A stretch of 64,000 nucleotides of DNA from the NCBI RefSeq assembly GCF_000243415.2, contig NZ_KI912270.1, positions 2,046,001 to 2,110,000 of the forward strand, read 5' to 3'. Shown piece by piece: positions 38,674-54,338 of the stretch (the stretch's first letter is position 1; the number at the start of each line of letters is the position of its first letter). Source of the stretch: Mycolicibacterium tusciae JS617. GTDB lineage: Bacteria; Actinomycetota; Actinomycetes; Mycobacteriales; Mycobacteriaceae. A model generated the notes under the pieces. That model saw only the letters and a program-made list of their open reading frames with translations. It was not told the DNA's origin and ran no database searches. The translations under genes and the position numbers were made by a program.

Positions 38674-38696
38674 GATACTGTAACGATTACAGTATC
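38674..38696. promoter_or_regulatory. ACTGTAA-type operator upstream of the BVMO gene
   Basis: GATACTGTAA and TTACAGTATC are perfect 10-bp arms around CGA, the longest of the family in this window. It lies 32 bp before the BVMO start, where a TetR-type repressor would block transcription. Related sites are at 44011, 50772 and 54322. Confidence 0.8.
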
Positions 38697-38741
38697 AGGC
38701 GTGGGCGATGACCCGATCGGATGCCGACAAGCGCATCGCGG

Positions 38742-39674
38742 TCAGTGACCCGCAGACGCACCCGCTCCCGCCAGTCGTTCCTCGCGACGCCGGTCGTAGT
38801 GCGCGGCCTTGTCCTCCACGAGGTCGAGGAAGGCGGCCAGTTCATCTCGCGCACGCGCCCCGTCTCCGTCGAGGTCATCGCGTTCGAACACTCGCCAGAA
38901 CCGCAGGACAGGCCGCACGACGTCGTCCAGATGTGAACGGAGGTCGTAGATGCCAGCCTTGGCGATCTTCAGGGCGTTCTCTGCGAAGCCAGGCATCGTG
39001 CTTCCCGGCATCTGGAAGTTGATGACCTCGTGGGCGATCGCGGTCATGGTCGCGTTCGGAGCGATCTCGAACGCTGCATCGACCAGGTTCCGGTAGAAGA
39101 CCATGTGCAGGTTCTCGTCGGTCGCCACGCGGGTGAGGAGTTGTTCGGCGAGCGGGCACCCCGACGCCCTGCCGGTGTTGCGGTGACTGATCCGGGTGGC
39201 CAGTTCCTGAAATGACACGTACGCCAGCGCTTCGAGCATCGACTTGTCACCCGAGTCGTAGCCGGCGACCATGTGCACCATCCGGCCACGCTCGAGCTCA
39301 ACGGGATCGATGCCGCGCGTCACGATGAGGTAGTCGCGGATGGCAATGCTGTGGCGCGCCTCTTCGGCAGTCCACTGACCGACCCATTGCCCCCACGCGC
39401 CGTCGGGACCGAAACGCACCGCGATCTCGCGGTGGTAGGACGGCAGGTTGTCCTCGGTCAGGAGGTTGACGAGCATGGCGGCCCTGGCAACGTCGTCGAG
39501 CGGCGAATCCTCCGGGACCCAGTCCTCGCCGCCGAGGAATGCGAAGTCGCGACCACGGCTCCACGGCACGTAGTCGTGCGGATTCCAGGGCTTCGCCGAC
39601 GCGAGGTGGCGGTTGAGATTGGCCTCCACCACCGGTTCCAGCTCTATGAGCAATGCACTTTGAGTTGTCGTCAT
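38742..39674 (-). CDS. Acyl-ACP desaturase-like ferritin-fold diiron protein
   Basis: The 310-residue protein has NLLTEDNLPSYHREI, WTAEEARHSIAIRDYL, SFQELATRISHRNTG and ATDENLHMVFYRNLV. The E and ExxH residues are those of the diiron centre of stearoyl-ACP desaturases (mycobacterial DesA1/DesA2 family). It would introduce a double bond or hydroxylate an acyl chain using O2. It is transcribed in the same direction as the BVMO but ends 99 bp before it. Its own upstream palindrome (39703-39722) differs from the ACTGTAA sites. Confidence 0.85.
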   Translation of the reverse strand: MTTTQSALLIELEPVVEANLNRHLASAKPWNPHDYVPWSRGRDFAFLGGEDWVPEDSPLDDVARAAMLVNLLTEDNLPSYHREIAVRFGPDGAWGQWVGQWTAEEARHSIAIRDYLIVTRGIDPVELERGRMVHMVAGYDSGDKSMLEALAYVSFQELATRISHRNTGRASGCPLAEQLLTRVATDENLHMVFYRNLVDAAFEIAPNATMTAIAHEVINFQMPGSTMPGFAENALKIAKAGIYDLRSHLDDVVRPVLRFWRVFERDDLDGDGARARDELAAFLDLVEDKAAHYDRRREERLAGAGASAGH

Positions 39675-39702
39675 TCGAGACTCTCCATACTTACGGCTGC
39701 GT

Positions 39703-39722
39703 AACCTACGCTACCGTAGGTT
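39703..39722. promoter_or_regulatory. Operator candidate upstream of the desaturase-like gene
   Basis: AACCTAC-GCTACC-GTAGGTT is a perfect 7-bp inverted repeat with a 6-bp spacer, 29 bp upstream of the desaturase-like ATG. It is unlike the ACTGTAA sites, so another regulator is expected. Confidence 0.6.
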
Positions 39723-39851
39723 GACGGAAAATCAAGCCCCGAACATGGCGAGGAGCCCGAAGTTCGATTCGCCTGATAGACAGGCTGTTTCGCGTCCGCC
39801 GCCAAAGCGGATCACCCGCAGATTCCGCTCGCCCACAGCTGTCGAAACCTC

Positions 39852-39869
39852 TACTGTAATATCTTCCGT
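39852..39869. promoter_or_regulatory. Degenerate ACTGTAA-type operator upstream of the Rieske operon
   Basis: The left half TACTGTAA is exact; the right half (CTTCCGTT) keeps only about four of eight positions. It lies 16 bp before the Rieske ATG, at the place expected for an operator. Weaker binding or loss of the site is possible. Confidence 0.4.
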
Positions 39870-39885
39870 TAAATACGCTGGCGGC

Positions 39886-40896
39886 ATGGGAGGCGACGTG
39901 TTGGTCCCGTTCACCTGGAAAGTCACCGGCTGGTTCATGGTGGGTTGGTCGGCCGAGTTTCCGCAGGGCGAGGTCCGCCCGCTCCGCTACTTCGGCGAAG
40001 ATCTCGTCGCCTATCGCGACGACACCGGTGAACTGCATGTGCTGCAGGCGCACTGCAGGCATCTCGGCGCGCACATCGGACACGGCGGCAAGGTCGTCGG
40101 TGACTGCGTCGAGTGCCCGTTCCACGGCTGGCGATGGGGCCCCGACGGCACCAACCGCTACATCCCCTACCAACCGGACCGGCCCAACCGCGCGCTCAAG
40201 CTTCGGGTGTACCCCGTCAACGAGCAGTACGGCTGCGTGTTCGTCTGGCACCAACCCCAAGGCAAAGAGCCTCAATGGGAGATGCCCGACATCTTCACGT
40301 CGTTCCCGCAGTTCGAGACCGACCCGTCGGCGTACTACCGCCCGTACCCGGAGTTTTCACGCCGAACCGAGAACGAGCCGGTCCATCCGCAGATCGTGGC
40401 CGAGAACGGCCCGGACAGCTCGCACTTCCATTACGTACACGGCGCCACGGTGACCCCGGTGAACCTGGAGTGGAAGATCGTCGACGAGCAGTGGCAGTTC
40501 CTCACCGGCTGGCCGGACGCACGCAGCGACGATCCGAACAAGATGGCGCTGCATATACACAGCCACATGTTCGGCCTCGGCGGTGCGATCAGCGTGTTCG
40601 AGGGGTCGTCAAATCACCGGCTGATCTTCGCCGTCTCACCCGTTGAGGACGGACTCTCGACGATGTTCTACTCGATCTGGTGGCCCAAGGTTGACGGCGA
40701 GACGTCCGACGTACCGCCGGACGAGGTGCGAGAACGAGTCGAGAAGCAGTTCCTCCGCACGGTCTGGGAGGACCTGGACATCTGGCGCTATCAGGAGTAC
40801 ATCGAAAATCCGCCGCTGGCCAAGATCGATGCGAAACCCTATATGGCGCTCAGGAAATGGGCGCAGCAGTTTTATGAAGTCCCCGGATCCGTATGA
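39886..40896 (+). CDS. Rieske-type non-haem iron oxygenase, KshA-like
   Basis: The 336-residue protein starts at the ATG at 39886. The Rieske [2Fe-2S] site is CRH followed by CPFHGW (CxH...CxxH). The mononuclear iron site is in NGPDSSHFHYVHGA. The C-terminal SIWWPKVDGE and DLDIWRYQEYIENPPL are typical of the KshA/steroid 9-alpha-hydroxylase-like branch. It needs a reductase (KshB-like), not encoded here. It is the first gene of a four-gene operon with overlapping ends (hydrolase-like, thioesterase, FadD). The substrate is unknown; a steroid- or terpenoid-like ring is plausible. Confidence 0.88.
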   Translation: MGGDVLVPFTWKVTGWFMVGWSAEFPQGEVRPLRYFGEDLVAYRDDTGELHVLQAHCRHLGAHIGHGGKVVGDCVECPFHGWRWGPDGTNRYIPYQPDRPNRALKLRVYPVNEQYGCVFVWHQPQGKEPQWEMPDIFTSFPQFETDPSAYYRPYPEFSRRTENEPVHPQIVAENGPDSSHFHYVHGATVTPVNLEWKIVDEQWQFLTGWPDARSDDPNKMALHIHSHMFGLGGAISVFEGSSNHRLIFAVSPVEDGLSTMFYSIWWPKVDGETSDVPPDEVRERVEKQFLRTVWEDLDIWRYQEYIENPPLAKIDAKPYMALRKWAQQFYEVPGSV

Positions 40897-41522
40897 GAAT
40901 CGACCTCGCTGACCTCGCCGCGCCCTCGCACACCGCGGTCGTCACCCAGGAGTGTCAGGGTGCAGTCGTCGGACCGAACGCCGGCCTTGCCGCACTCGCC
41001 CACGAGGCACGCCGGGAGGCTCTCCCGAACATCGAACGACTGCTACCGGCCGCGAGGGGTGCCGGCGTCAAGGTCGTGCACTGCCTCGTCCAACGCCGAC
41101 CCGACGGGCTCGGCGGCAACCGCAACGCGAAGATCTTCGCCATGGGCGACGGCTCGGGGGGCGAGATCGCCATCACGCCGGGCACCCCTGGTGCGGAGCT
41201 GCTGCCTGAACTCGGCCCGGCGCCAACCGATCTCGTGCTGCGGCGCTGGCACGGCATTGGCCCCATGGGCGGCACCGACCTGGACGCCGTTTTGCGCAAC
41301 CTGGCGGTGACGACGATCGTTGCCGTCGGCGTCTCGGTGAACCTGGCCATCACCAACCTCTGCATGGATGCTGTGAACAAGGGCTACCGCGTCGTCCTAC
41401 CGCGCGACGCCGTCGCCGGTATCCCTACCGACTACTCGAACACGATCATCGACAACATGCTTTCACTGCTCGCGACCATCACGACTACCGGCGACCTGAT
41501 CGAGGTGTGGAATCAGCCGTGA
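40893..41522 (+). CDS. Isochorismatase-fold protein lacking the catalytic Cys
   Basis: The 209-residue protein has its ATG overlapping the TGA of the Rieske gene (ATGA). It has the cysteine-hydrolase/isochorismatase fold: AVVTQECQGAVVG, KVVHCLVQRR, GTDLDAVLRNLAV, VAVGVSVNLAITN, PRDAVAGIPTDYS. The usual Asp is Glu20. The Lys position is in RRWHG and appears to be Arg. The nucleophilic Cys of GVxxNVC is Ala152. It is therefore probably not a normal amidase, and could be a binder or use different chemistry. Its role in the operon is unknown. Confidence 0.75.
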   Translation: MRIDLADLAAPSHTAVVTQECQGAVVGPNAGLAALAHEARREALPNIERLLPAARGAGVKVVHCLVQRRPDGLGGNRNAKIFAMGDGSGGEIAITPGTPGAELLPELGPAPTDLVLRRWHGIGPMGGTDLDAVLRNLAVTTIVAVGVSVNLAITNLCMDAVNKGYRVVLPRDAVAGIPTDYSNTIIDNMLSLLATITTTGDLIEVWNQP

Positions 41523-42145
41523 CCGAAACCAGCAGTCAAACCCCCGCCGAGAGCACGGCCTTTCCCGAGATCAAGCCCGTCGTCGCCGGACCCGAGCTGG
41601 GCCGGTTCATGACCGCCATGCGGCGCCTGCAGGACATCGTCGTGTCGACCAACCCGGACAGCGCACTGTGGGCCGACGGCGCCGATCAGATCGAAGAACT
41701 GTGCGCGCGCCTCGAAGACCACCGCGCGCCCCAAGGTGTCGCTCCCGCCGGTCGCGGGCCCCACCTGCCGGGGCTCGGCCATCCTTTGATGCCGCCGTGG
41801 ACGATGACGGACTTCGGGGCCGACGGTGTGGTCATGAAGGGCCACTTCAGCCGCTTCCACGTCGGCGGTAACAACGCCGTACACGGCGGCGTCATACCGC
41901 TTTTCTTCGACTGGCACTTCGGGATGATCGTGTCGGCCGCGGGGCGCGCCAACAGCCGCACCGCCTACCTGCACGTCGACTACCGAAAAATCACGCCGAT
42001 TGACCAACCACTTGTCTCTCACGGTCGGATAGATTCGATCGATGGGCGCAAGGCGTTCGTCACCGCGACGATGACAGACTCTGACGGCAACGTCCTCAGC
42101 GAAGCCAACGGCCTGATGATCCGCCTGCTCCCCCACCAGCCATGA
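41519..42145 (+). CDS. Hotdog-fold acyl-CoA thioesterase (PaaI-like)
   Basis: The 208-residue protein takes the GTG at 41519 as start because it overlaps the upstream TGA (GTGA). The hotdog core is NAVHGGVIPLFFDWHFGMI, with the helix-capping HGG, followed by YLHVDYRKITPID, GRKAFVTATMTDSDG and SEANGLMIRLLP. It would hydrolyse an acyl-CoA intermediate. The N-terminal 90 residues are an extra helical part with no recognised motif. The 3' end overlaps the FadD start (ATGA). Confidence 0.8.
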   Translation: MTETSSQTPAESTAFPEIKPVVAGPELGRFMTAMRRLQDIVVSTNPDSALWADGADQIEELCARLEDHRAPQGVAPAGRGPHLPGLGHPLMPPWTMTDFGADGVVMKGHFSRFHVGGNNAVHGGVIPLFFDWHFGMIVSAAGRANSRTAYLHVDYRKITPIDQPLVSHGRIDSIDGRKAFVTATMTDSDGNVLSEANGLMIRLLPHQP

Positions 42146-43839
42146 GAGGCACGATGTCCGATTCGCTCCGTACGTCCGCGGTGTCCGACTCCGCACCACA
42201 GTTCACTGTTCCTGGCGCCGCCGACGCCGTCGCCGCCGTGATCGGTGACCGCGACCTCATCGTCCAGGGCAATCGCCGCTACACCTACGCCCAGATCGTG
42301 GAGCGGTCCAATCGGTTGGCGTCCTACCTACACTCACGCGGGTTGGGCGTTAAGACCGAACGTTGCGAGCTCGCCGGTCATGAGGTGGGTCAGGACCTGC
42401 TGGGCATCTACGCGTACAACGGCCCCGAGTACGTCGAGTCCATGCTCGGTTCATGGCGGGCCAGGGTTGCGCCGTTCAATGTCAACTACCGCTACGTGAA
42501 GAACGAGCTTCAGTACCTGCTCGCGGATTCCGGTGCGACCGCACTGATCTACCACGCGACGTTCGCGCCCCGCGTCGCCGACGTCAAACGCGCGCTTCCG
42601 CGTCTGCGTGTCCTCATCCAGATCGCCGACGAGTCGGGCAACGACCTCGTGCACGGCGCGGTCGATTACGACTCGATCATGAAATCGGGATCGTCGCAGC
42701 CACCGCCGGTCGAGCCGTCCCCCGACGACCTCTATGTCCTCTACACCGGCGGCACGACCGGTATGCCCAAGGGCGTGCTGTGGCGCCAGCACGACATCTT
42801 CATGACGTCGTTCGGCGGTCGCAACATGGCCACCGGTGAACTCACCCAGTCCTACGACGAGATCGCCAAACGCGTCCAAGAGAACCCGGGCACCAAGATC
42901 TTCACGCTTCCACCGCTGATGCATGGTGCGGCACAGTGGAGCGTGATGACCGCGCTCACCACCGGGCAGACAATCGTGTTCTCCGAGACGCCCAGTCGAT
43001 TCGACGCCGACGAGGTCGTCGCGACAGTCGAGCGGGAGAAGGTGCTCGCCGTGCAGGTGGTCGGCGACGCGATGGCGCGCCCGCTTGCCGACGCCCTCGA
43101 ACGCTCGTCGGGAGATCTGTCGTCGATGGCCGTCGTGGCCAACGGCGGCGCGCTGCTGACCCCCACTGCCAAACAACGGCTGATCGACGTCAAACCCGGC
43201 CTGATCATCATGGACGGCGTCGGATCCTCGGAGACCGGAATCCAGATGAATCACATGTCTGCATCCGGCGCCGTATCGACCGGCACGTTCAACGCGGGAC
43301 CGGACACCTTCGTCGCCGCCGAGGAACTCGACTCGATTCTCGAGCCGGGCCATGACGGCATCGGTTGGCTGGCTCAGCGAGGCTTTGTGCCACTGGGTTA
43401 CAAGGGCGATGCGGCCAAGACCGCCAAGACATTCCCGGTGATCGATGGCGTGCGGTTCTCGATTCCGGGTGACCGCGCGCGCCATCTCGCCGATGGCGGA
43501 ATCGAACTGCTGGGCCGCGAGTCTCAGACCATCAATTCCGGCGGGGAGAAGATCTTCGTCGAGGAGGTCGAGACCGCGCTGCTGTCTCACCCCGCCGTGG
43601 CCGACGTCGTGGTCTCCGGCCGCCCGAGCGAACGGTGGGGGCAGGAGGTCGTCGCGATCGTGGCCCTGCTGGACGGCGCCAGCGCCGACGCCCAGGAGTT
43701 GATCGACCACGCGTCGGATTCCATCGCGCGCTACAAGCTGCCCAAGGCCGTGGTATTCCGGCCCGTCATCGAGCGCAGCCCTGCGGGCAAGGCCGACTAC
43801 CGCTGGGCGCGTGAGCAGGCAGTCAGCGGGAGTTCTTGA
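42142..43839 (+). CDS. Acyl-CoA synthetase (FadD, AMP-forming)
   Basis: The 565-residue protein begins at the overlapping ATGA; an ATG four codons later is also possible. The AMP-binding P-loop is VLYTGGTTGMPKGVLW, with GVGSSETG in motif A4, GDRARHLADGGIELLGR near A8 and SPAGKADYRW with the C-terminal catalytic Lys. It activates a carboxylic acid to its CoA thioester. It closes the Rieske operon, which suggests that the ring product or side chain enters beta-oxidation here. It is similar in type to the FadD at 60869. Confidence 0.88.
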   Translation: MRGTMSDSLRTSAVSDSAPQFTVPGAADAVAAVIGDRDLIVQGNRRYTYAQIVERSNRLASYLHSRGLGVKTERCELAGHEVGQDLLGIYAYNGPEYVESMLGSWRARVAPFNVNYRYVKNELQYLLADSGATALIYHATFAPRVADVKRALPRLRVLIQIADESGNDLVHGAVDYDSIMKSGSSQPPPVEPSPDDLYVLYTGGTTGMPKGVLWRQHDIFMTSFGGRNMATGELTQSYDEIAKRVQENPGTKIFTLPPLMHGAAQWSVMTALTTGQTIVFSETPSRFDADEVVATVEREKVLAVQVVGDAMARPLADALERSSGDLSSMAVVANGGALLTPTAKQRLIDVKPGLIIMDGVGSSETGIQMNHMSASGAVSTGTFNAGPDTFVAAEELDSILEPGHDGIGWLAQRGFVPLGYKGDAAKTAKTFPVIDGVRFSIPGDRARHLADGGIELLGRESQTINSGGEKIFVEEVETALLSHPAVADVVVSGRPSERWGQEVVAIVALLDGASADAQELIDHASDSIARYKLPKAVVFRPVIERSPAGKADYRWAREQAVSGSS

Positions 43840-44010
43840 GCGACGCTTGCGAGCGAATCATCGGCTCCGTAGCCGACGGCGGGTGCGGTTGCGCGCCATC
43901 CGCAACGCCAGACGCGAAGCTGTCTGCATCGACCCACTGAAGGGCGCGGCCGCGCGCCCGGTGATGGTGAACGGCGAGGCGGGCTGGCCCGCTGTCCAGC
44001 TGATATAGTC

Positions 44011-44029
44011 TACTGTAAGATTTACAGTA
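44011..44029. promoter_or_regulatory. ACTGTAA-type operator upstream of the P450-TetR operon
   Basis: TACTGTAA and TTACAGTA are perfect arms around GAT. It lies 44 bp before the P450 GTG. As the TetR gene is the second gene of this unit, the site would give autoregulation. The rest of the intergenic region (43840-44072) shows nothing else clear. Confidence 0.8.
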
Positions 44030-44072
44030 CAGTTCGCAGGACCGACCCGGACCCGGAGATGCTGGAGCAGTT

Positions 44073-45281
44073 GTGGAGAGCTCAGTGCACAACGTCACGG
44101 TGGAGGAGGCGGCTGACCTCGTTCGTGACCCCTATCCTCTGTTCGCGCGGCGGCGGCAGCAGTTCGGCGTCTTCAAGGGCAGTGTCATGGACTGGTCCAA
44201 GACACCCGAGTCCATGCTCCCCGAACACCTCTATGCCGCAGTCTCCTTCGATGCGGTCAACCGGGTGTTCCGTGACAGCAAGGTGTTCAACTCCCACATC
44301 TACGACAGCACCATCGGCCTGTTCATCGGCCCGACGATTCTGGCCATGGAAGGCAAGAAGCACTGGGAGCATCGCAATCTGGTGTCCGCGGCCTTCAAGA
44401 CGCGATCACTGTCACGGTGGGAGCCCGAAATCGTCCGCCCTGTCGTCAACGGGCTGATCGACGAGTTCATCGACGTCGGGAACGCCGATCTGGTCAAGCA
44501 ATTCACGCTGGAGTTCCCCACCCGGGTGATCTCGAAGCTGTTGGGCCTTCCCGAAGAAGACCTGCCCTGGTTCCGCAAGCGCGCCGTGGAGTTGATCAGC
44601 TACACAGTGAAGTGGAAGCGGGCGTTCGAGGCGTCCGCGGAGCTGAAAGACTATTTCCTGCAACAGATCGAGCAGCGCAGGAGCAAGCCGACCGAGGACA
44701 TCATCGGCGACCTGGTGACCGCCGAGATCGACGGCGAGAAGCTCACCGACGAAGCGATCTACTCGTTCCTGCGGCTGCTGCTGCCTGCCGGGCTGGAGAC
44801 CACGTACCGGTCGTCGGGGAACCTGCTGTTCCTATTACTCACCCATCCCGAACAGTTCCGCGCGGTGCAGACGGACCGCGACCTCATCGGGCCCGCAATC
44901 GAGGAGGGCCTGCGGTACGAGACTCCGCTGACCACGGTGCAGCGCTACGCCGCCGAGGAGACCGAGATCGAGGGCGTCACCCTTCCGCAGGGCGCGGTCA
45001 TCGACGTGTGCATCGGCTCGGCCAACCGTGACGAGCAGCGGTGGGAACGCTCCGAGGAGTTCGACATCCACCGCAAGCGCGTGCCGCACATATCCTTTGC
45101 CGCGGGCGAACACACCTGCATGGGGCTGCATCTGGCCCGGATGGAGACCCGCGTTGCCGTCGAATGCCTGCTGGATCGGCTGACCGACATCCAACTCCTC
45201 ACCGACGACGACCCCTACATTCACGGTCAGCCCTTCCGCTCCCCCACCGCCATTCCCGTGACGTTTGCGGCGGCCGGTTGA
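44073..45281 (+). CDS. Cytochrome P450, second
   Basis: The 402-residue protein starts with GTG. The I-helix carries LLPAGLETTYRSSGN, with Glu-Thr-Thr in place of the usual Asp/Glu-Thr-Thr pair. The ExxR is in EEGLRYETPL and the haem loop is FAAGEHTCMGLHLARME with the Cys ligand. AMEGKKHWEHRNLVSAAF is the C-helix region. It is unlike the P450 at 28811. It is followed after 3 bp by a TetR gene and controlled by an ACTGTAA-type site, so it is probably the first oxidation step of the predicted pathway. Confidence 0.9.
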   Translation: MESSVHNVTVEEAADLVRDPYPLFARRRQQFGVFKGSVMDWSKTPESMLPEHLYAAVSFDAVNRVFRDSKVFNSHIYDSTIGLFIGPTILAMEGKKHWEHRNLVSAAFKTRSLSRWEPEIVRPVVNGLIDEFIDVGNADLVKQFTLEFPTRVISKLLGLPEEDLPWFRKRAVELISYTVKWKRAFEASAELKDYFLQQIEQRRSKPTEDIIGDLVTAEIDGEKLTDEAIYSFLRLLLPAGLETTYRSSGNLLFLLLTHPEQFRAVQTDRDLIGPAIEEGLRYETPLTTVQRYAAEETEIEGVTLPQGAVIDVCIGSANRDEQRWERSEEFDIHRKRVPHISFAAGEHTCMGLHLARMETRVAVECLLDRLTDIQLLTDDDPYIHGQPFRSPTAIPVTFAAAG

Positions 45282-45284
45282 GTT

Positions 45285-45929
45285 GTGGGCGCCAACACGA
45301 ACTCCGACACCCGCAAGCGACGGGACAGGGGTTCGATCAGTGCCGACGAAATCATCAAAGGCGCCTTTGACGTAGCCGCGCAGGTGTCGATCGACAACTT
45401 GAGCATGCCGGTCCTGGCCAAACACCTCGATGTCGGAGTCACCAGCATCTACTGGTATTTCCGGCGCAAGGACGATCTGCTCGACGCCATGACCGATCTC
45501 GCGCTGGACCGGTTCGAGTTCACCGTGCCGACCATCGACGCAACCAATTGGCGTGAGTCGCTTCGCGATCACGCAACCACGATGCGCGCACACTTCCGTG
45601 ACAATCCGATCCTGTGCGATCTGGTTCTCATCCGTAGTCAGTTCGGCGGCAGCGCGGTGCGCGGAGCATTGCAGAAGATTGAGCAACCGATCGCGGCGCT
45701 GATCGAGGCGGGACTGGATGCTCAGCAGGCCATCGCCGTATACGGAGCGATCTCGGTGCACACCCGCGGGTCGGCGGTGCTGCAGCGCATCCAGGACAAG
45801 ACCGAGAGCTTTACCGCCCAGCCTTCAAATGGTCAGCGCTACATCGGCTTTGCCGACGACATCGATTACGACTACGTCCTGGACAGCATCCTCGATCATG
45901 CCCAGACCCTTATCGACGTGCCCTCGTAA
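45285..45929 (+). CDS. TetR-family regulator, candidate repressor of the ACTGTAA regulon
   Basis: The 214-residue protein starts with GTG 3 bp after the P450 stop. The DNA-binding part is SADEIIKGAFDVAAQVSIDN, then MPVLAKHLDVGVTSIYWYFRRKDDLLDAM. The C-terminal ligand domain has no recognised signature. It lies behind an ACTGTAA/TTACAGT palindrome at 44011, and three further perfect sites stand in front of catabolic genes up to 15 kb away. It is the best candidate for the protein that binds them. The other TetR (35307) has its own, different palindrome. Confidence 0.85.
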   Translation: MGANTNSDTRKRRDRGSISADEIIKGAFDVAAQVSIDNLSMPVLAKHLDVGVTSIYWYFRRKDDLLDAMTDLALDRFEFTVPTIDATNWRESLRDHATTMRAHFRDNPILCDLVLIRSQFGGSAVRGALQKIEQPIAALIEAGLDAQQAIAVYGAISVHTRGSAVLQRIQDKTESFTAQPSNGQRYIGFADDIDYDYVLDSILDHAQTLIDVPS

Positions 45930-45934
45930 TCAGC

Positions 45935-45957
45935 GATTTGGGTGCGCTGGCGTTCGC
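45935..45957. repeat. Left half of the palindrome split by IS1182 copy 2
   Basis: GATTTGGGTGCGC at 45935-45947 pairs with GGGCACCCAAATC at 49169-49181. It starts 5 bp after the TetR stop codon. Joined, the two halves form the bidirectional hairpin between the TetR gene and the convergent aldehyde dehydrogenase gene. Confidence 0.75.
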
Positions 45958-45992
45958 TCAGCGGGTTGTTTCGAAATGGCGTGTCGGTGTGA

Positions 45993-46210
45993 GTGCCTGA
46001 TTTGTTGGTCGTCGAGAATGTGTTGGTGGCCAAGGGGTATCGACCGGTAGTGCGTGATCAGCAGTTCTTAGTTCCGCCGGATATGCGGGAGTGGCTGCCT
46101 GCGGATCATTCGGTGTGGGCGTTGATCGGGATCGTGGAGGGGTTGGACACCTCGGCGTTTCACCACCAGCGACGGACCGGTGGTGTCGGGCGGGCCGGGT
46201 ATGACCCCGA
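45993..46210 (+). pseudogene. IS1182 transposase copy 2, 5' fragment
   Basis: Residues 1-73 are the same as in copy 1 (MPDLLVVENVLVAKGYRP to GRAGYDPD). The IS3 element then interrupts the gene after ACCCCGA. The reading continues at 47513 after the 3-bp duplication. Confidence 0.9.
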
Positions 46211-46274
46211 TGGCGTGCCCTCTGTTCTCCGGACTGCGGACCAAATAGGGTCCGACTGGAAAGGATGAACGGCA

Positions 46275-46565
46275 TTGGCGAAGAAATATCAGAAGTTCTC
46301 ACCGGAGTTTCGGGAGGAAACGGCCCGACTGGTGGTGGACGGGCAGAAGTCCATCGCCGAGGTCGCGCGCGAACACGGGCTCAGTGATACCACTGTCGGC
46401 AACTGGGTTCGGAAGTATCGAGAAACGCATGCCACCGACGAGCCGCCGCTGGAATTATCTGAACGTGCTCGGCTGCGTGAATTGGAACGCGAGAACCGAG
46501 AAATGGCGATGGAACTCGCCTTCTTAAAAAAAGCAGCAGCGTACTTCGCGAAGGAGCCACGGTGA
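46275..46565 (+). CDS. IS3-family OrfA (transposase N-terminal part)
   Basis: The 96-residue protein starts with TTG. The helix-turn-helix is REETARLVVDGQKSIAEVAR and HGLSDTTVGNWVRKY. A leucine-zipper-like helix follows (LRELERENREMAMELAFLKK) and ends AAAYFAKEPR. It binds the IS ends. The stop overlaps the orfB GTG (GTGA), and an A7 run near the 3' end may allow -1 frameshifting to make the OrfAB fusion. Confidence 0.88.
   Translation: MAKKYQKFSPEFREETARLVVDGQKSIAEVAREHGLSDTTVGNWVRKYRETHATDEPPLELSERARLRELERENREMAMELAFLKKAAAYFAKEPR
46526..46532 (+). promoter_or_regulatory. Candidate -1 frameshift site (A7) in the IS3 element
   Basis: Seven A residues lie in the frame TTA-AAA-AAA-GCA of orfA. 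After a -1 slip the frame is open through SSSVLREGAT into orfB. This is the expected mechanism in the IS3 family. Confidence 0.6.
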
Positions 46566-47471
46566 GCCAGAAATACGCGTTCATCGCCGCGGAGCACGCT
46601 GACGGTGCCACCTTTGCGGGCATGGCTCCCACGATCGTGCAGATGCTGAAATGGCTGGGGGGTGTCGAAAATCGGGGGTTCTACGAGTGGTGGGGCCGGC
46701 CGGCGAGTGCGGCGATGTGCCGCCGCGAGGAACTCAAGCTCAAGATCGCCGCACTGTTCACGTCTTTCGGCGCCGTGTACGGGTATCGGCGCATCCACGC
46801 CGAGTTGGTCCGCGCCGGTGAACGGGTAGGCCCAGAGTTGGTGCGCACACTGATGCGCGAGTTGAATCTCGTTGCACTGCAACCGAAACCTTACAAGCGG
46901 ACCACTATCGCCGGCGAGTCCGCCACCGCGGTGCCTGATCTGGTGGCCCGTGACTTCACCGCGGATCGGCCCGGGGTGAAGCTGGTCGGTGACATCACCT
47001 ATATCCGGACCTGGGGCTGGGTGGCTGTATTTGGCGACCGTGATCGACTGCTTCAACAAAGAAGTGATCGGTTACGCGATGGCCGATCACATGCGTACCG
47101 AGCTGGTCACCGGCGCCCTGGAGATGGCTGCCCGCAACCACGCCCTGGAACCGGGATGCATTATGCACACCGACCGCGGGACGCAATACACCTCGACCGA
47201 TTACGCCATTAAAATCGCCGACCTTGATATGAGAGCCTCGCTGGGGCGGACCGGAATATGTTGGGATAACGCGCTCGCAGAATCATTCTTTGCAGCCCTG
47301 AAAAATGAACGTGTGCACCACATGGTGTATCCGACGCGGAAGAAAGCAAGAGCTGATATTGCCCGCTATATCGAACTGTTCTATAATCGGCGCAGACTTC
47401 ACTCCGCGTTGGGCTACCGCACGCCGCATGAAGTCCGCATCGAATACATGAATTCACAGCTCGCGGCATAA
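46562..47471 (+). pseudogene. IS3-family OrfB (DDE transposase) broken by a frameshift
   Basis: The first part (46562-47212) has the N-terminal HTH_21-like region, YGYRRIHAELVRAG and the first catalytic Asp in LVGDITYIRTW. The frame then shifts near the GGGG run at 47013-47016. The second part (46989-47471 in another frame) continues WLYLATVIDCFNKEVIGYAM and carries the second Asp in HTDRGTQYTS and the Glu in NALAESFFAALKNE. One extra G explains the break. A sequencing error is possible, but as read the transposase is inactive. Confidence 0.85.
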
Positions 47472-47516
47472 TTCCCGCGAAATCCGCAGTCCTAAAAGCG
47501 CGGAGCAGGCCACGAC

Positions 47517-49065
47517 ATGTTGGTGACGCTGCTGATCTGGGCGTGGTCGCAGGGGGTGCGGTCCTCGCGTCGGATCGAGCGGGCGTGTGCTGATGTGGTG
47601 TCTTATCGGGTGATCTGTGCTGGTGATGGGCCTGATCACGTCACGATCGCGAGGTTTCGCGCCGAGAACCACGCCGCGTGTGAGCAGTTGTTCACCGAGG
47701 TGTTGATGTTGGCTGCCGGGCTGGGGTTGGGCCGGCTGGAGACTGTGGCACTCGACGGAGTCAAGATCGCCTCGAACGCGTCGCTGTCGGCCAACCGCAC
47801 CACCTCGGGGCTAGCCAAGGCCGCCGCGGCGGAGGCGGCCCGAATCGCCAAGGCTGCGGCGGCCGCACACGAAGCCACTGATGCCGCCGAGGACGAGATG
47901 TTTGGCGACGATAACCCGGGGTCGGTGCCCGCCGAGTTGACCGATCCGGCGGTGCTGGCTAAACGCATCGCCGAAGCGCTGGCACGGCGCAACGCCGAGG
48001 ACACCGCCCAGGGGCCCGCCGCCGATGATGGTGCACCGGCTGCGGAATCGGTTGAGCTCGAACGGGTTGCCCACGACCGATCGGGGCGCATCGCCCAAGC
48101 CCAGGCCCGCATCGACGCCGAGATCGCCGCCGAACGCGCCGAACGCGACGCCTTGGTGGGCAAGTATCTGGCGCGCATCGCGGCCGGGGAGAAGATGACC
48201 GGCCGGATCCCGGCCGGCGCCCAGGTGGCGATGGCCGAGCGGGTGCTGGCCGCGGCGGTGGCCAGGTCGCAGGCCAAACACCAGAGTTGGGCCGCACGCG
48301 GGCGCGGTCGGCGCCCGACGTCCGGGGCGCTCACCGGCGCCCGTCGAGCAGAACGCCCGGGTCCGTCAGGCGCGAGCGCGACTGGAGCGGGCCCGGGCCG
48401 CGCAGGTGGCTGCCGCCCAGGCCGCCACCAACGTCGAACGCACGGCCAATCTCACCGATCCCCAATCACGGATCCAGCCGTTGCGCGGGGGCGGCTGGCT
48501 GCAGGGCTACAACTGCCAGGCAGTCACCGCCGCTGACGGACTGATCGTGGCCACCGGGGTGGGCACCAGCCCGGTCGACAACCAGTACTACACCGACATG
48601 ATCGACAAGGCCATCAAGGCCGCGGACCTGGTCACCGGCCACCGCCGCGATGACACATCAACCACGGCCACCGCCTCCTCGATCGCGATGGTGCTCGCCG
48701 ACGCCGGCTACTGCACGAACGAGAACCTGACCGCGCCAGGACCAGACCGGCTGATCGCTACCGGCAAGGCCCGCGACGTGCACCACGCGGCCACCGAACA
48801 TCCCACTCAAGGGCCACCGCCCACCGACGCCGATCCGATCGCGGCGATGGCTCACCGGTTACGCACCCCGCAGGGAATCATTCAGTACGCCATGCGATCT
48901 CACATCGCCGAGACACCATTCGGACATGCCAAGCACAACCTCGGATTCCGCCGATTCACCGGCAGAGGCCTGGCCCGAGCACGCAGCGAATGGACATTCC
49001 ACGCCGCGGTCCACAACATCGGCAAGATCCTCAACCACCTCGCCAGCACACCACTGCCCGCCTGA
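47517..49065 (+). pseudogene. IS1182 transposase copy 2, 3' part with a frameshift
   Basis: The frame continues from the IS3 insertion point with MLVTLLIWAWSQGV and is nearly the same as copy 1 to about 48300. There an extra G (GCGGGCGCGG against GCGGCGCGG in copy 1) shifts the frame, and the rest, from AATNVERTANLTDPQ to NHLASTPLPA, is read in another frame from about 48406. The copy is thus broken twice and cannot make transposase. Confidence 0.9.
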
Positions 49066-49159
49066 TCGGGCGGCCCCCAGTACTAACACTCACCATCGAT
49101 CCAGCGACGAACTCTGCCCGTCGATCCAGCGAGAACTTCAATTCGAGACAGCCCGTCAG

Positions 49160-49181
49160 CGAATGTTTGGGCACCCAAATC
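49160..49181. repeat. Right half of the palindrome split by IS1182 copy 2
   Basis: GGGCACCCAAATC at 49169-49181 complements the arm at 45935-45947. It lies 3 bp beyond the stop codon of the aldehyde dehydrogenase gene, the site expected for its terminator. Confidence 0.75.
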
Positions 49182-49184
49182 ACG

Positions 49185-50735
49185 TTATTTCGGCCGCGGT
49201 ATCCGGCATCCGATGGTCTTGGTCTCCAGGTACTGCGAAAAGCCCTCGATCCCGCACTGCCGTCCCACGCCGCTGTTCTTGTAGCCACCGAACGGGGCGT
49301 CGGCGCCGTAGAACATCCCGCCGTTGACCCCGAATGACCCGGTGCGGATGCGGCGAGCGATGTTCATGCCACGCTCCATCGATCGTGAGATGACCGCGCC
49401 TGCGAGGCCGTACGTGCTGTCGTTGGCGATGCGCACGGCGTGGTCGTCGTCGTCGAACGGCATCACGATGAGCACCGGACCGAAGACCTCTTCCTGTGCG
49501 ATCGCCGCGCTGTTGTCGATGCCGACGATCACCGTGGGTTGCACGTAATGCCCGCCCGCAAGGTGCTGGGGCAGATATTGGACCGCACCTCCCCCGGTGG
49601 TGATCTCGGCGCCGTCGCGTCGCGCCCGTTCTATCGCCGTCAGAACCCGATCCTTTTGTACAGCGCTGATCACCGGTCCGACAAGGGTTTCCGGCAGCAC
49701 CGGATCGCCGACCGGCACGCCCTGGTACGCGGCGGTGACGGTGGCGACGGCCTCGTCGTACAGCGACCGGTGCACAAGCATGCGGGTGGTGGCCGCGCAC
49801 GCCTGGCCGGCGTGCACGCACACGCCGATTGCGGCTCCCAGGATCGCGGCGGGGTTGGCGTCGTCGAGCACGATAGCCACCGACTTGCCCCCGAGTTCCA
49901 ACAACATCCGCTTCATCGTGTCGGCGCCCTGACGCATCAGCAGCTTGCCGACGGCCGCCGATCCGGTGAAGGAGATCATGTCGATGCGGGGGTCGGTGCC
50001 CAGGATTGAAGCGACGCCGTTGGACGGGGTCGTGACGACATTCAGTACGCCCGCGGGAATGTCGGTGTGCTGGGCGACGAGCCTGCCCAGTCGGGTTGCG
50101 TTCCACGGTGTGTTCGGATCGGGCTTGAGCAGCACCGTATTACCCGACGCCAGCGCGGGTCCGAGCTTGTTGAGGATGACCTCGATAGGGAAGTTCGATG
50201 GAGTGATCGCTGCGACGACGCCGACCGGTTCCTTGACGACGGTGCGGACGTTGCGGTCGCCGAACAACCCGCCGCCGTCGAGGCTGCGTTCCCATTCGAA
50301 GTCGTCGATCAGGCCCGCCGGGTAGCGCAGCGATTCGGCGAGGGGCCAATCCAACTGTGCGGTCTGCGTTGTCATCGCCGGACACCCGACCTCGGCGATC
50401 AGTTCCTCGCGCAGGTCTTCCTTCTCGGTCTCGATCGCCGACTGCAATTGCGCCAGGCACCGCTTGCGAAACTCGCCGTTGGTCGGCCAATCGGTCTCGT
50501 CGAACGCTCGACGGGCGGCCGCGATGGCGCGACTCATGTCGTCGGCGCCGGCGGCGGCCGTCGCCCCGAGCAGCAGGCCGGTGGCGGGGCTGACGTTGTC
50601 GAAGGTGGCGCCGGAGGCCGCGTCCACGAGATGGCCGTCGATCAGCATGCGGGATTCGGCACGCGCTGCCGCCCGGGTGCCGACATCGACGCTGGTTTCT
50701 ATCGGCTCTACTTGATCTTTGATGGAGCTCACCAT
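49185..50735 (-). CDS. Aldehyde dehydrogenase (NAD(P)-dependent)
   Basis: The 516-residue protein has PSNFPIEVILNKLGPALASGN and KPDPNTP around the cofactor site, FTGSAAVGKLLM, the general-base Glu in LELGGKS and the nucleophile Cys in HAGQACAATTRML. EEVFGPVLIVMPFDD and PFGGYKNSGVGRQ complete the family pattern. It oxidises an aldehyde to the acid. It is divergent from the CaiB-like gene across an ACTGTAA-type operator 37 bp before its ATG, so both are expected to be induced together. Confidence 0.9.
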   Translation of the reverse strand: MVSSIKDQVEPIETSVDVGTRAAARAESRMLIDGHLVDAASGATFDNVSPATGLLLGATAAAGADDMSRAIAAARRAFDETDWPTNGEFRKRCLAQLQSAIETEKEDLREELIAEVGCPAMTTQTAQLDWPLAESLRYPAGLIDDFEWERSLDGGGLFGDRNVRTVVKEPVGVVAAITPSNFPIEVILNKLGPALASGNTVLLKPDPNTPWNATRLGRLVAQHTDIPAGVLNVVTTPSNGVASILGTDPRIDMISFTGSAAVGKLLMRQGADTMKRMLLELGGKSVAIVLDDANPAAILGAAIGVCVHAGQACAATTRMLVHRSLYDEAVATVTAAYQGVPVGDPVLPETLVGPVISAVQKDRVLTAIERARRDGAEITTGGGAVQYLPQHLAGGHYVQPTVIVGIDNSAAIAQEEVFGPVLIVMPFDDDDHAVRIANDSTYGLAGAVISRSMERGMNIARRIRTGSFGVNGGMFYGADAPFGGYKNSGVGRQCGIEGFSQYLETKTIGCRIPRPK

Positions 50736-50771
50736 CTACCTCGTACAATCAGAAACAATGCTGGGCGCTCA

Positions 50772-50788
50772 ACTGTAATTATTACAGT
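50772..50788. promoter_or_regulatory. ACTGTAA-type operator between the ALDH and CaiB-like genes
   Basis: ACTGTAAT-T-ATTACAGT is a perfect 8-bp inverted repeat around one base, i.e. ACTGTAA and TTACAGT with a 3-base centre. It is placed to control both divergent genes (37 bp from the ALDH ATG, 29 bp from the CaiB TTG). Confidence 0.8.
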
Positions 50789-50816
50789 AGGCGAATACAA
50801 CAACGGAGAAGTTGAC

Positions 50817-52040
50817 TTGATCAAGGTGATGGACGGCGTTCGTGTCCTCGAGGTTGCACAGTTCACGTTCGTACCGGCGGCCGGAGCGATCCTCGCCGAT
50901 TGGGGCGCGGACGTGATCAAGGTCGAGCACCCGGTGCGCGGCGACACTCAGCGCGGGTTCGTCAACATGGGCGGCTTCCAGTTGGACCCGAACCGGCACC
51001 CCCTCATCGAGCACCCCAACCGCGGCAAGCGCAGCGTCGGCATCGACGTGTCCACACCGGACGGCCAGGAGGTGCTCTACGAGATCGCCAAGACCGCGGA
51101 TGTGTTCCTCACCAATTACATGCCCGCGCAGCGGCAGAAGAACAAGTTCGACGTCGAGCACATCCGCGCGGCCAATCCGAACATCATCTACGCGCGCGGC
51201 AGCGCGTACGGCGACAAGGGCGTGGAACGGGACACCGGCGGATTCGACGGAACCGCGTTCTGGACCCGCAGCGGCGTGGGCCACGCCCTGACACCAGAAG
51301 AGCTCGGGGGCGCTCTGCCGCAGGGCATTCCGGCGTTCGGCGATTCGATCGGCGGGATGAATATCGCCGGTGGGATCTCGGCGGCGCTGTTCCATCGGGA
51401 GCGTACCGGCGAGGCCCTAGAGATCGACGTCTCGCTGCTGAGCACCGCATGGTGGGCAGCCGGCGCCAGCGTCACCCAAGGTATGGAAACCGGGGAGACC
51501 ATGCGCTCGCTGATGCCCGGCACCACCACGTCGGTGAACCCGTTCATGGCCAACTACCTGACATCGGACGGCGGCACCATCAACCTGTGCATCGTCAGCC
51601 CTACCGGATACATCCGGGATGCGTTCGAGCATCTCGGACTGCCCGAACTCGCCGACGATCCGCGCTTCTCCGACGTCATGCCGCTGATCCAGAATGCCGA
51701 GGCCGGTGTGGAACTCATCGCCGAGGCGATCCGCAGCAAGCCGTTCGAGTACTGGCGCCAGCACCTCAAGACCATGAAGGGCCAGTGGGCGCCATTCCAG
51801 AGCCTCATCGACCTCGCGTCCGACGAGCAGGCGATCGCCAACGACATGATCGTGGAAGTCGAAGCCAGCGACGGCGGACCCCCGTTCAAGGTCGTGCGCG
51901 GTCCCATCCAGTTCAACCACGAACCGTTGGAGACGACGCGGGCCCCGCAGGCGTCCGAGCACACCGAGATCGTGCTCATGGAACTCGGGTTGGACTGGGA
52001 CCGCATCGAGGCGCTCAAGGACTCCGGCGCCATCGCCTGA
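50817..52040 (+). CDS. CaiB/BaiF-type CoA-transferase (class III)
   Basis: The 407-residue protein takes the TTG at 50817 as start because GGAGAAG lies 8 bases upstream; a GTG at 50826 and an ATG at 50829 follow in frame. The family pattern is GVRVLEVAQFTFVPAAGAILADWGAD, VIKVEHPVRGDTQRG, GKRSVGIDVSTPDGQEVL and GGFDGTAFWTRSG, with the catalytic Asp expected in that region. It moves CoA between acids, often acting on steroid or terpenoid side-chain acids in actinobacteria. The long frame upstream of 50817 is the ALDH antisense. Confidence 0.85.
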   Translation: MIKVMDGVRVLEVAQFTFVPAAGAILADWGADVIKVEHPVRGDTQRGFVNMGGFQLDPNRHPLIEHPNRGKRSVGIDVSTPDGQEVLYEIAKTADVFLTNYMPAQRQKNKFDVEHIRAANPNIIYARGSAYGDKGVERDTGGFDGTAFWTRSGVGHALTPEELGGALPQGIPAFGDSIGGMNIAGGISAALFHRERTGEALEIDVSLLSTAWWAAGASVTQGMETGETMRSLMPGTTTSVNPFMANYLTSDGGTINLCIVSPTGYIRDAFEHLGLPELADDPRFSDVMPLIQNAEAGVELIAEAIRSKPFEYWRQHLKTMKGQWAPFQSLIDLASDEQAIANDMIVEVEASDGGPPFKVVRGPIQFNHEPLETTRAPQASEHTEIVLMELGLDWDRIEALKDSGAIA

Positions 52041-52044
52041 GTCG

Positions 52045-52103
52045 TTGACTCTGCGCTGAGGGCGTGAGCTACTCGACTTTCTGCGCCGCAGACGCAGAGT
52101 CAA
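52045..52103. repeat. Long-loop palindrome between convergent genes
   Basis: TTGACTCTGCG (52045-52055) and CGCAGAGTCAA (52093-52103) are perfect 11-bp arms with a 37-base loop. It lies 4 bp after the CaiB-like stop and overlaps the last codons of the molybdopterin oxidoreductase gene. Probably a bidirectional terminator or a dispersed repeat. Confidence 0.6.
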
Positions 52104-54309
52104 TGCGCTCGACGCGTATGGGTACGCCTGTCAACCAGGCCATCCCGGACACCGACTCGACGTCACCGGGCTCACTCGACGTCAAACGGTTCACGTTCGC
52201 CCCGCCGGCGCGGTTGGCCAACTGCCAGCCGCCGGTGCCCTTGTGACCCCAGCCGTGCGGTATCGCAACAACCCCGGCTACGAGATCCTTCGTCGAGGTG
52301 ACCGGCACGGTGATCTGACCGTATGGCGAGCTGATCGCCACGACGTCACCGTCGGCGATCTTCAACTCGGCTGCGTCGTCGACGTGCATCAGCGCGTGGT
52401 GGCGACGCTCGCCGCGCATCAACAACGGCGAGTTGTGCATCCACGAGTTCTCCGAGCGTGGCTCTCGCATGCCGATCATCCGCAGCGGGTACCCCTCGGG
52501 ATGTCTGCTATGGGACAGCTTGGCGACCTCGTCGGTGATGTCGGAATGGACCAGCCGAATCCGCCGAGACAGATAGGCCACTGCGTCACGCAGTACGCCG
52601 GTGCGAACATGCGGTGACAGCACGACACCGTGTGGGTGCTGTTCGGTCAAACTGCGCAACGACAATCCACCGCGGCGAAGGCCGAAGCGGTCACCGCCCT
52701 CCGACATCCGCACGAGTGCATCGATCATGATGCGCGGCGTGAGAGCGGTCCCGAAGGTGCTCAATGCTTTTCGGGCCACGCCGAACGCCGCGAATGCCGG
52801 CACCTGCCGCCCGAGTCGACGCGCGAGGTCGTCGACGATGTCCCACTCCGAACGCGACTCGCCCGCGGGTGCGACCACCGCCTCGGTGGCTTGGCGAAAC
52901 GGCGTGGCCTGAAAGGCCTGGAACGTATACGGGAAGTCGTCGCGTTCGTACATGGTGGTCACGGGCAGGATGTAGTCGCATCGCGCCGTGGTCTCAGTGA
53001 CGTAGAAGTCAAGAGCCACCGACAGATCAAGCGTTTCGAACGCGGCCTCGAGTTCATCACCGTTCGGCACCGACAACACGGGGTTGCCCGCCGAGACGAA
53101 CATCGCCTTGATCTGGCGATCGCCCGATGTGGTGATCTCCTTGGCCATCATCGCGGCGGGCTCGGAACCGATCGCGCTGCGAATTCCGCTGACGCGCGAC
53201 CGCTTCCGCCGCCGCGAGCGCCGCATCACGGCGCCCATCATGGTGTTCTGCCACCTCTGGCCGACAGTCTGCATCGAGTTGAAGACCGAACCGCCCGGCG
53301 CGTCGAGGTTTCCCGCGACCAGATTGACCGCGTCGATCAGATAGGTGGTCAACGTGCCGTATCGGCCGACGCACGTGCCGAGTCTTCCGTAGATCGCGGC
53401 GCGCGGTGTGCGCACGAGATCCCGCGCGAGCGCCCTGACGCTCGCAGGATCGATACCGGTCTGGGCGGCCGTCGTCTCCGGCGTGAACGGCCGGCTCAGC
53501 GTTCGCAGCCAATCGACGCCGTCGGCGACCCGGTTCACCCGGTCGACGTCGACAAGGTGCTCGGAAAACATCACTTGCAGGAGCGAGAGCAGCAGAAAGG
53601 AATCCGTGTCGGGAACGATGCCGAGCCATTCGAACGCAACGGCGGTCTCGGTGCGGCGGGGATCGACGACCACCACGCGACCGCCACGCTTGACGATGTC
53701 GTGCATGCGGTCCTTGATTCGGGGCGCGGTCAGGAAGCTGCCATGGGAGACAACCGGATTGGCGCCCATCAGCACCAGCAGGTCTGTACGCGTCAGATCG
53801 GGGATCGGAACCGATGTCGGCACGCCGTAGAGCAGCTGGCTGGCGATCAGCCTGCTGTTCGTGTCCTGCGACGAGGCCGTGAAGTAGTGACCGTGCCGTC
53901 CGAGGCCCTTCATGAACAGCAGTGCCGCGAAGGTGTGCGCGTAGCTGAACGCGCCAGGGTTGCCCATGTACCAACCGACGCCACCGGAACCGTCGCGACG
54001 CAGCACCGCCGAAAGGCGTGCGGCGATATCGGACATCGCCTCATCCCAGGTGACCGGTTCGAATCCGTTCGGTCCACCTTCATCCCCTGGTCCAGCCCGC
54101 CGGCGCCGCAGTGGGGTCGTCACCCGGTCCGGATCGTTCTGCACCTCGGTGAAGGCGATGCCCTTCTGGCACGCGAAACCCGCCGACAGCGGGTGTTCCT
54201 TGTCGGGACGCAACGCGATGAGGCGGCCGTCCTCGACGGTCGCGATCATGCCGCACAGCGGCTCACAGATTCGGCAGAACGTGGGCTTGTGTTCGATCAC
54301 CGGTGCCAC
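52069..54309 (-). CDS. Molybdopterin oxidoreductase, DMSO-reductase superfamily
   Basis: The 746-residue protein has a [4Fe-4S] motif at the N-terminus: C12-x2-C15-x3-C19 (FCRICEPLCGM) and C47 (ACQKG). The molybdopterin domains follow: GNPGAFSYAHTFAAL, TDLLVLMGANPVVSHG, VVVDPRRTETA, GNLDAPGGSVF, AGNPVLSVPNGDEL. The C-terminal molybdopterin-dinucleotide binding domain is SWMHNSPLL...HVDDAAELKIADGD. The substrate is unknown; M. tuberculosis Rv0197-like oxidoreductases are similar in size. It is divergent from the thiolase unit across an ACTGTAA-type site and has no Fe-S or membrane partner gene here. Confidence 0.85.
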   Translation of the reverse strand: MAPVIEHKPTFCRICEPLCGMIATVEDGRLIALRPDKEHPLSAGFACQKGIAFTEVQNDPDRVTTPLRRRRAGPGDEGGPNGFEPVTWDEAMSDIAARLSAVLRRDGSGGVGWYMGNPGAFSYAHTFAALLFMKGLGRHGHYFTASSQDTNSRLIASQLLYGVPTSVPIPDLTRTDLLVLMGANPVVSHGSFLTAPRIKDRMHDIVKRGGRVVVVDPRRTETAVAFEWLGIVPDTDSFLLLSLLQVMFSEHLVDVDRVNRVADGVDWLRTLSRPFTPETTAAQTGIDPASVRALARDLVRTPRAAIYGRLGTCVGRYGTLTTYLIDAVNLVAGNLDAPGGSVFNSMQTVGQRWQNTMMGAVMRRSRRRKRSRVSGIRSAIGSEPAAMMAKEITTSGDRQIKAMFVSAGNPVLSVPNGDELEAAFETLDLSVALDFYVTETTARCDYILPVTTMYERDDFPYTFQAFQATPFRQATEAVVAPAGESRSEWDIVDDLARRLGRQVPAFAAFGVARKALSTFGTALTPRIMIDALVRMSEGGDRFGLRRGGLSLRSLTEQHPHGVVLSPHVRTGVLRDAVAYLSRRIRLVHSDITDEVAKLSHSRHPEGYPLRMIGMREPRSENSWMHNSPLLMRGERRHHALMHVDDAAELKIADGDVVAISSPYGQITVPVTSTKDLVAGVVAIPHGWGHKGTGGWQLANRAGGANVNRLTSSEPGDVESVSGMAWLTGVPIRVERIDSASAAQKVE

Positions 54310-54321
54310 GCCGACCAGGAT

Positions 54322-54338
54322 ACTGTAATAGTTACAGT
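54322..54338. promoter_or_regulatory. ACTGTAA-type operator between the molybdo-enzyme and the thiolase unit
   Basis: ACTGTAA and TTACAGT are perfect arms around TAG. The site is 13 bp from the molybdo-enzyme ATG and 38 bp from the small DUF35-like frame, so one repressor could block both units. Confidence 0.8.

Follow-up and report, generated by a model that had tools for sequence, protein, structure and literature searches.

A conserved ACTGTAA-n3-TTACAGT palindrome and two paralogous candidate TetR regulators of a predicted catabolic island in Mycolicibacterium tusciae JS617

Introduction

KstR and KstR2, the regulators of the mycobacterial cholesterol regulons, are TetR repressors with palindromic operators in the divergent promoters of a catabolic cluster, and the system described here is predicted to be of the same kind. 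It lies in a stretch of 64,000 nucleotides of Mycolicibacterium tusciae JS617 (contig NZ_KI912270.1, positions 2,046,001 to 2,110,000), which we call the window, and consists of four perfect copies of the palindrome ACTGTAA-n3-TTACAGT beside genes of a predicted degradative pathway and a gene for a TetR-family regulator, here named TetR-A. The start of a KstR2-regulated gene is 22–82 bp away from its site, and one gene that is not regulated lies at 285 bp (PMC3068626, excerpt). The KstR core TnnAACnnGTTnnA and the KstR2 core AnCAAGnnCTTGnT have even centres, whereas the present operator has the centre AA-n3-TT.

The nearest counterpart in the literature was described in Mycobacterium sp. VKM Ac-1817D, where a palindrome termed motif X adjoins 14 operons, of which 13 are induced by phytosterol, and was ascribed to the orthologue of Rv0767c, a TetR regulator that, as in the window, adjoins genes for a cytochrome P450 and an aldehyde dehydrogenase (ALDH) and for which autoregulation was proposed (PMC6593523, excerpt). 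The Rv0767c motif was presented as a logo (PMC4482099, excerpt), and in the M. tuberculosis sites of Rv0767c, GAC/GTC is reported to be frequent and TAA/TTA scarce (PMC10312376, excerpt). Unlike TetR-A, Rv0767c belongs to another TetR lineage, and Rv0767c-type loci carry another palindrome, TGGACAnnTGTCCA.

We propose, with a probability of about 0.86, that the four perfect palindromes are operators of a small paralogous TetR clade (TetR-A and its paralogue TetR-B). Under this proposal, the two proteins would keep a predicted catabolic island of 44 kb repressed, and the binding of a pathway intermediate would end the repression. Judged by the comparative evidence, the predicted regulon is a genuine and conserved one, of the ordinary TetR-operator kind and larger than first described. 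It is undescribed in the literature searched (no description of this operator was found among the matches listed, from open-licence papers), and it is unusual in that two paralogues are candidate regulators of a single operator.

Results

Four perfect palindromes in one 16-kb stretch

The four 17-mers (Table 1) match the palindrome with no mismatch, and all are intergenic among the mapped genes, 12–44 bp from predicted start codons. The initial annotation had reported four such palindromes, outside gene interiors and 13–44 bp from start codons, and this observation was confirmed; the cores start at 38677 and 44012, where it had given 38674 and 44011. Position 38674 is the first base of a longer 23-bp palindrome, GATACTGTAA-CGA-TTACAGTATC, and position 44011 is the first base of a 19-bp palindrome around the 44012 site.

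From base composition, 2e-5 perfect copies are expected per 64 kb and 0.002 per 7.3 Mb, and none appeared in 200 Markov simulations of the window. At up to three mismatches, six sites are present in the window against 0.20 expected, a number reached by 0 of 100 shuffles. When the 7.3-Mb genome was scanned for random matches outside promoters, as the initial annotation had proposed, the only perfect copies were the four of the window, all in one 16-kb stretch; the reversed pattern, used as a control, had no perfect match in the genome.

Conservation at syntenic promoters

We compared 36 related loci with a TetR gene, 35 from Mycobacteriaceae and one from Nocardia. Clade A comprises 16 loci with a TetR 72–90% identical (plus the window) and clade C 19 loci with a TetR 54–58% identical; the labels A, B and C are our own, as are those with L for loci and G for genomes. 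At least one perfect site is present in 34 of the 35 Mycobacteriaceae loci, in syntenic promoters. The promoter of the P450-tetR pair has a perfect site in 17/17 clade-A loci (window included) and 16/19 clade-C loci, and that of the Baeyer-Villiger monooxygenase (BVMO) in 15 of the 16 clade-A matches, the miss (L060) being a 30%-identical protein. In the gap between ALDH and the CaiB-like gene, the site is perfect in 14/17 clade-A loci and within three mismatches in 17/17; a perfect site is also found at ALDH in clade C (15/19), at the molybdo-enzyme in 15/16 clade-A and 15/15 clade-C loci having that gene, and at DUF35 in clade C (13/15). Pairwise identity across the four clade-A promoters is 0.98–1.00 in the arms, 0.48–0.65 in the spacers and 0.52–0.70 in the flanks, the value for the arms being biased upward because the loci were aligned on their best match. 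The conservation beside orthologous genes that the initial annotation had suggested looking for is therefore strong.

Co-occurrence with the TetR family

Among 297 genomes of the same genus, a perfect site is present in 172 and a TetR homologue (E<=1e-40) in 240. All site-bearing genomes have a homologue: 172/240 with it against 0/57 without it (Fisher p 2.7e-26), 20 of these 57 being named in the search result and the other 37 taken from their absence in the match list. The reversed control pattern is perfect in 2/297 genomes. Where the TetR is at least 68% identical (n=22), four sites occur in 16 genomes, three in five and one in one. In a sample at the level of the order, a perfect site was observed in 30/42 genomes of the genus and in 1/355 others; this sole match is on contig 1 of G379 (108457-108473), from another family of the order.

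The candidate regulators

The N-terminal helix-turn-helix domain of TetR-A scores 40.4 bits against PF00440 (cut-off 24), which places the protein in the TetR family. The predicted model (pLDDT 80.5, pTM 0.70) has, as a model, the all-helical TetR fold, with Tet repressors as best Foldseek matches (E ~1e-6). The Tet repressor proper is the nearest fold in the PDB (TM-score 0.70 for the top match) and, with its engineered derivatives, also gives the best sequence matches; it differs from TetR-A in that identity is 17–24% among the 50 fold matches listed and in that the neighbouring target genes of TetR-A code for enzymes. MftR2 (NF038211), the second-best NCBIfam match of TetR-A, was rejected, at 56.3 bits far under the cut-off of 285 bits. 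A palindrome before the regulator's own operon, a trait of the TetR family, is likewise present, since a perfect site precedes P450-tetR.

Just past the window (contig 2113418-2114203) we identified TetR-B, a paralogue 56% identical to TetR-A. Their recognition-helix segments (GVTSIYWYFRRKDDLL, residues 51–66) share 15 of 16 residues, against 45% identity in the C-terminal part. The same helix is identical at 15 or 16 of 16 positions in the compared A, B and C examples and in the Nocardia homologue, with C-terminal identity to TetR-A down to 41–55% in the B, C and Nocardia examples. In the tree, A is set apart by a branch of full or almost full support, and so is B; the C proteins do not form a single clade (two changes).

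The tetR-B promoter has a degenerate site, ACTATAGGGCTTACAGT, between tetR-B and a divergent hydratase operon. Across 32 TetR-B loci chosen from among the matches listed, 29 have a site with at most three mismatches in the 200 bp upstream of the gene, as do 7/7 in a later set, and 26 of the 29 show the form ACKATAG-n3-TTACAGT.

The initial annotation had proposed the TetR encoded at 45285 as the regulator. The co-occurrence of site and TetR family supports this, with the restriction that TetR-A is not the sole candidate, given a paralogue with a near-identical helix and a conserved degenerate site. A perfect site is found in 123 of the 190 genomes with a single homologue and in 49 of the 50 that have more than one; a second TetR copy accompanies TetR-A in all 22 genomes that have TetR-A. 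Taken together, these counts suggest that TetR-B alone probably suffices, and that A and B probably act together where both exist.

Degenerate sites and extent of the island

In addition to the perfect copies, the 44-kb region (contig 2077108-2121402) includes four degenerate sites that the initial annotation did not mention, and all four recur in relatives. The genome has 22 sites at up to three mismatches, eight of them in this region against 0.09 by background density, so that the operator sites extend over ~44 kb, partly beyond the window. One match elsewhere, at contig position 2673761 (L006), was set down as background, and a site with four mismatches at L087:2615, seen again in L185, L187 and L190, was kept out of the site counts.

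The degenerate set includes the site of tetR-B itself and one before the Rieske operon. A site with one to three mismatches precedes the Rieske gene in 18/18 clade-C and 6/14 clade-A loci having that gene, and the remaining eight clade-A loci have instead the perfect BVMO-side site within 150 bp. The site at 31108 has a counterpart with at most three mismatches in the same place in 6/6 relatives (L179-L184); as it extends ~11 bp into the start of the luciferase-like open reading frame, part of its conservation may be coding. A second degenerate site beyond the window, before another hydratase operon, was found in five of the six stretches of the later TetR-B set that cover it.

Sites outside the genus

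Seven of the 355 genomes of the order outside the genus have a TetR-B match. As outgroup loci we took the three best of these seven (G316 and G522, 62–67%; G555, 62%; from two other genera of the family) together with the Nocardia locus L079, and left out the other four (37–43% identity). The six outgroup stretches (102 kb) contain 12 sites with at most three mismatches, against 0.18 in simulations (at most one in 100 runs). Eleven of the 12, two of them mutually overlapping, lie within ~110 bp upstream of a homologue of the P450, hydratase, coenzyme A (CoA) ligase, CaiB-like or amidohydrolase genes; the twelfth (L162:11928) is before no mapped gene. Two of the sites, before a P450 gene, are 21-bp palindromes, TTACTGTA-n5-TACAGTAA.

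Discussion

Points against the proposed regulon

Several observations weigh against the regulon as we propose it. In the genome scan, the pattern gave six matches at up to two mismatches and 22 at up to three, fewer than the reversed control (10 and 79). Two-mismatch genome matches were therefore rejected as evidence on their own, and mismatched sites count only where they are clustered and recur in relatives. A homologue occurs without a perfect site in 68 of the 240 genomes, and the association within the genus could stem from the island being inherited as a whole, and not from the TetR itself. Single loci also depart from the pattern: L063 has near-sites only, none of the nine clade-C BVMO matches has the BVMO site, a nearby site is missing at three of the 32 TetR-B loci, the Nocardia P450 promoter (L079) is without a site, and L107, outside the clades, has 14/16 helix residues and no site. 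The upward bias in the identity of the arms, mentioned above, belongs here as well.

Which protein reads the site?

That TetR-A is the sole binder, with TetR-B having an operator of its own whose resemblance is left over from duplication, is in our view unlikely. The tetR-B promoter combines one perfect half-site with an altered one at most loci, as such a history would leave it, but perfect sites are found in the 123 single-homologue genomes, none of which has TetR-A as counted here, since each of the 22 TetR-A genomes carries two copies; in G004, where TetR-B is the sole homologue, there are four sites.

Still less probable is that a different regulator encoded on the island, such as the GntR/FCD protein at L087:11914-12765, uses the palindrome and that the tetR genes are merely targets. 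The GntR/FCD gene is ~6 kb from tetR-B, and the whole inherited island co-occurs with the sites. In five outgroup stretches and L079, which have near-sites and TetR-B homologues, the GntR query had no match at E 1e-20 (11–19 kb each, so that a gene farther away would be missed), which speaks against the GntR protein as the reader of the site; also, the same TetR clade stands behind sites in two contexts, P450-tetR and hydratase/tetR-B.

An identity with motif X is very improbable: it too is a palindrome near P450, ALDH and TetR genes ascribed to a TetR regulator (PMC6593523, excerpt), but the Rv0767c-type gene of this genome is at a separate locus (L090:8111-8725), far outside the TetR-A/B clade (end branch ~10), and none of the 14 Rv0767c-type loci has an ACTGTAA site at up to three mismatches, in keeping with the composition reported for the M. 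tuberculosis Rv0767c sites (PMC10312376, excerpt).

All 14 of these loci (L090:8104-8117; L166-L178) carry two TGGACAnnTGTCCA-like sites at up to two mismatches, which gives this regulator a motif at the level of sequence. The gene was called Rv0767c-type because its neighbour is the only TIGR04284 (Rv0768-type) match above the cut-off, and it is through this gene, rather than through its logo, that motif X was compared. As an operator for the window, TGGACAnnTGTCCA was rejected, with three matches at up to two mismatches against 1.96 expected and none at the four sites.

The KstR and KstR2 operators were also rejected, which agrees with the initial annotation, where the motif was recognised as neither. 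The KstR core matches none of the four sites and the KstR2 operator has no match in the window. One KstR-core match, TCCAACCGGTTTAA (54476-54489), falls at the end of the DUF35 remnant, ahead of the thiolase gene, with 0.21 expected by chance. In the excerpted KstR paper, the strings ACTGTAA and TTACAGT appear inside KstR sites and probes, for example ACTGTAACGTGTTCTAGTTA (PMC1995591, excerpt).

Proposed mechanism

For TetR-A and TetR-B as readers of the palindrome, we infer that a dimer on ACTGTAA-n3-TTACAGT, 12–44 bp before a start codon, would block RNA polymerase. Perfect sites would give tight repression of the BVMO, P450-tetR-A, ALDH/CaiB and molybdo-enzyme/thiolase promoters. Degenerate sites would repress more weakly the Rieske-thioesterase-ligase operon, the luciferase-like/carboxyl-transferase pair, tetR-B with the enoyl-CoA hydratase operon, and the further hydratase operon; the one between the hydratase operon and tetR-B would also make tetR-B autoregulated. 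An inducer, probably an acyl-CoA or an oxidised pathway intermediate, would free the repressor from the DNA. More tentatively, the sharing of one operator by TetR-A and TetR-B may constitute a two-signal gate, which would require that one early and one late intermediate both be sensed, or involve A/B heterodimers, with perfect sites marking tightly controlled genes and one-sided sites leaky ones; we consider this possible, at rather less than even odds.

A LexA-type box has the form CTGT-n8-ACAG, and the spacing here is 7.

Genes of the island

The genes and sites of the window are collected in Table 1. Farther on come genes for an epimerase-like dehydrogenase, two acyl-CoA dehydrogenases, amidohydrolases and another ligase, and past the window edge follow several enoyl-CoA hydratases, a short-chain dehydrogenase, a DHDPS-family protein, a second thiolase, the GntR regulator and TetR-B. 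The enzyme set (P450, KshA-like Rieske oxygenase, BVMO, ALDH, CoA ligase, CoA-transferase, acyl-CoA dehydrogenases, hydratases and thiolase) suggests that a hydrophobic cyclic compound, terpenoid- or steroid-like, is oxidised to CoA thioesters. PDB sequence searches of the BVMO and the Rieske protein named no substrate, and the 120 matches listed for the P450 are the generic "cytochrome P450", apart from one "hypothetical protein" and one UniRef "Steroid C26-monooxygenase".

Table 1. Predicted operator sites and genes of the island, in positions of the window
Feature	Position	Strand	Sequence or assignment	Context
Degenerate site	31108..31124		ACAGTAAGCAATTCAGT, 3 mismatches	between luciferase-like monooxygenase (-) and carboxyl-transferase gene (+)
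BVMO	37017..38642	-	closest PDB sequences: phenylacetone and steroid monooxygenase
Perfect operator	38677..38693		ACTGTAA-CGA-TTACAGT	34 bp before BVMO start
Fatty-acid desaturase (acyl-ACP type)	38742..39674	-	PF03405
Degenerate operator	39853..39869		ACTGTAATATCTTCCGT, 3 mismatches	16 bp before Rieske gene
Rieske oxygenase, KshA-like	39886..40896	+	PDB sequence search, near KshA
Isochorismatase-family hydrolase	40893..41522	+
Thioesterase-superfamily (4HBT) protein	41507..42145	+
Acyl-CoA synthetase	42142..43839	+	PRK07798 subfamily, above cut-off
Perfect operator	44012..44028		ACTGTAA-GAT-TTACAGT	44 bp before P450-tetR pair
Cytochrome P450	44073..45281	+
TetR-family regulator TetR-A	45285..45929	+	PF00440	predicted repressor of the regulon
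Block with transposase genes	46289..49065		HTH_21, DUF772, DDE domains	between tetR and ALDH; outside the regulon
ALDH	49185..50735	-	TIGR04284-like, below cut-off
Perfect operator	50772..50788		ACTGTAA-TTA-TTACAGT	common to divergent ALDH and CaiB; 36 and 28 bp from their starts
Class III CoA-transferase (CaiB-like)	50817..52040	+	PF02515
Molybdopterin oxidoreductase	52069..54309	-
Perfect operator	54322..54338		ACTGTAA-TAG-TTACAGT	between molybdo-enzyme and thiolase; 12 bp (molybdo-enzyme), 37 bp (DUF35 remnant)
DUF35 remnant, 37 codons	54376..54489	+	matches both ends of a 140-145 aa DUF35 protein (L015, L064, L067)
Thiolase / lipid-transfer-like protein	54506..55654	+

The tetR and ALDH matches, which correspond to genes separated by the transposase block in the window, stand 13–80 bp apart in 15 of the 16 relatives in clade A; in L055 the distance is 610 bp. 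IS110-type and DUF772-type transposases are also present after tetR-B (L087:6254-9521). The DUF35 partner seems to have been lost in clade A, because none of the stretches of the 16 relatives has a DUF35 match and the thiolase gene directly follows the site in the seven looked at in detail. A predicted enoyl-CoA hydratase (L087:10900-11904) has an in-frame tandem repeat, (GDERLREEQKT) x4, in its N-terminal half, and the open reading frame L087:12681-13550 had no Pfam match.

Significance

This work assigns a predicted operator, predicted regulators and predicted targets to an enzyme island. Of the 297 genomes sampled from the genus, 240 have its TetR homologue and 172 its perfect operator. In the case of KstR, the operator reportedly uncovered a whole pathway; here, the operator makes the substrate of the uncharacterised P450/Rieske/BVMO route directly testable via derepression. 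The perfect and degenerate sites constitute a natural series for how two paralogous repressors share DNA. If the two-repressor reading is true, this would be a new regulon of a terpenoid- or steroid-like pathway, with an operator kept by over half of the sampled genus.

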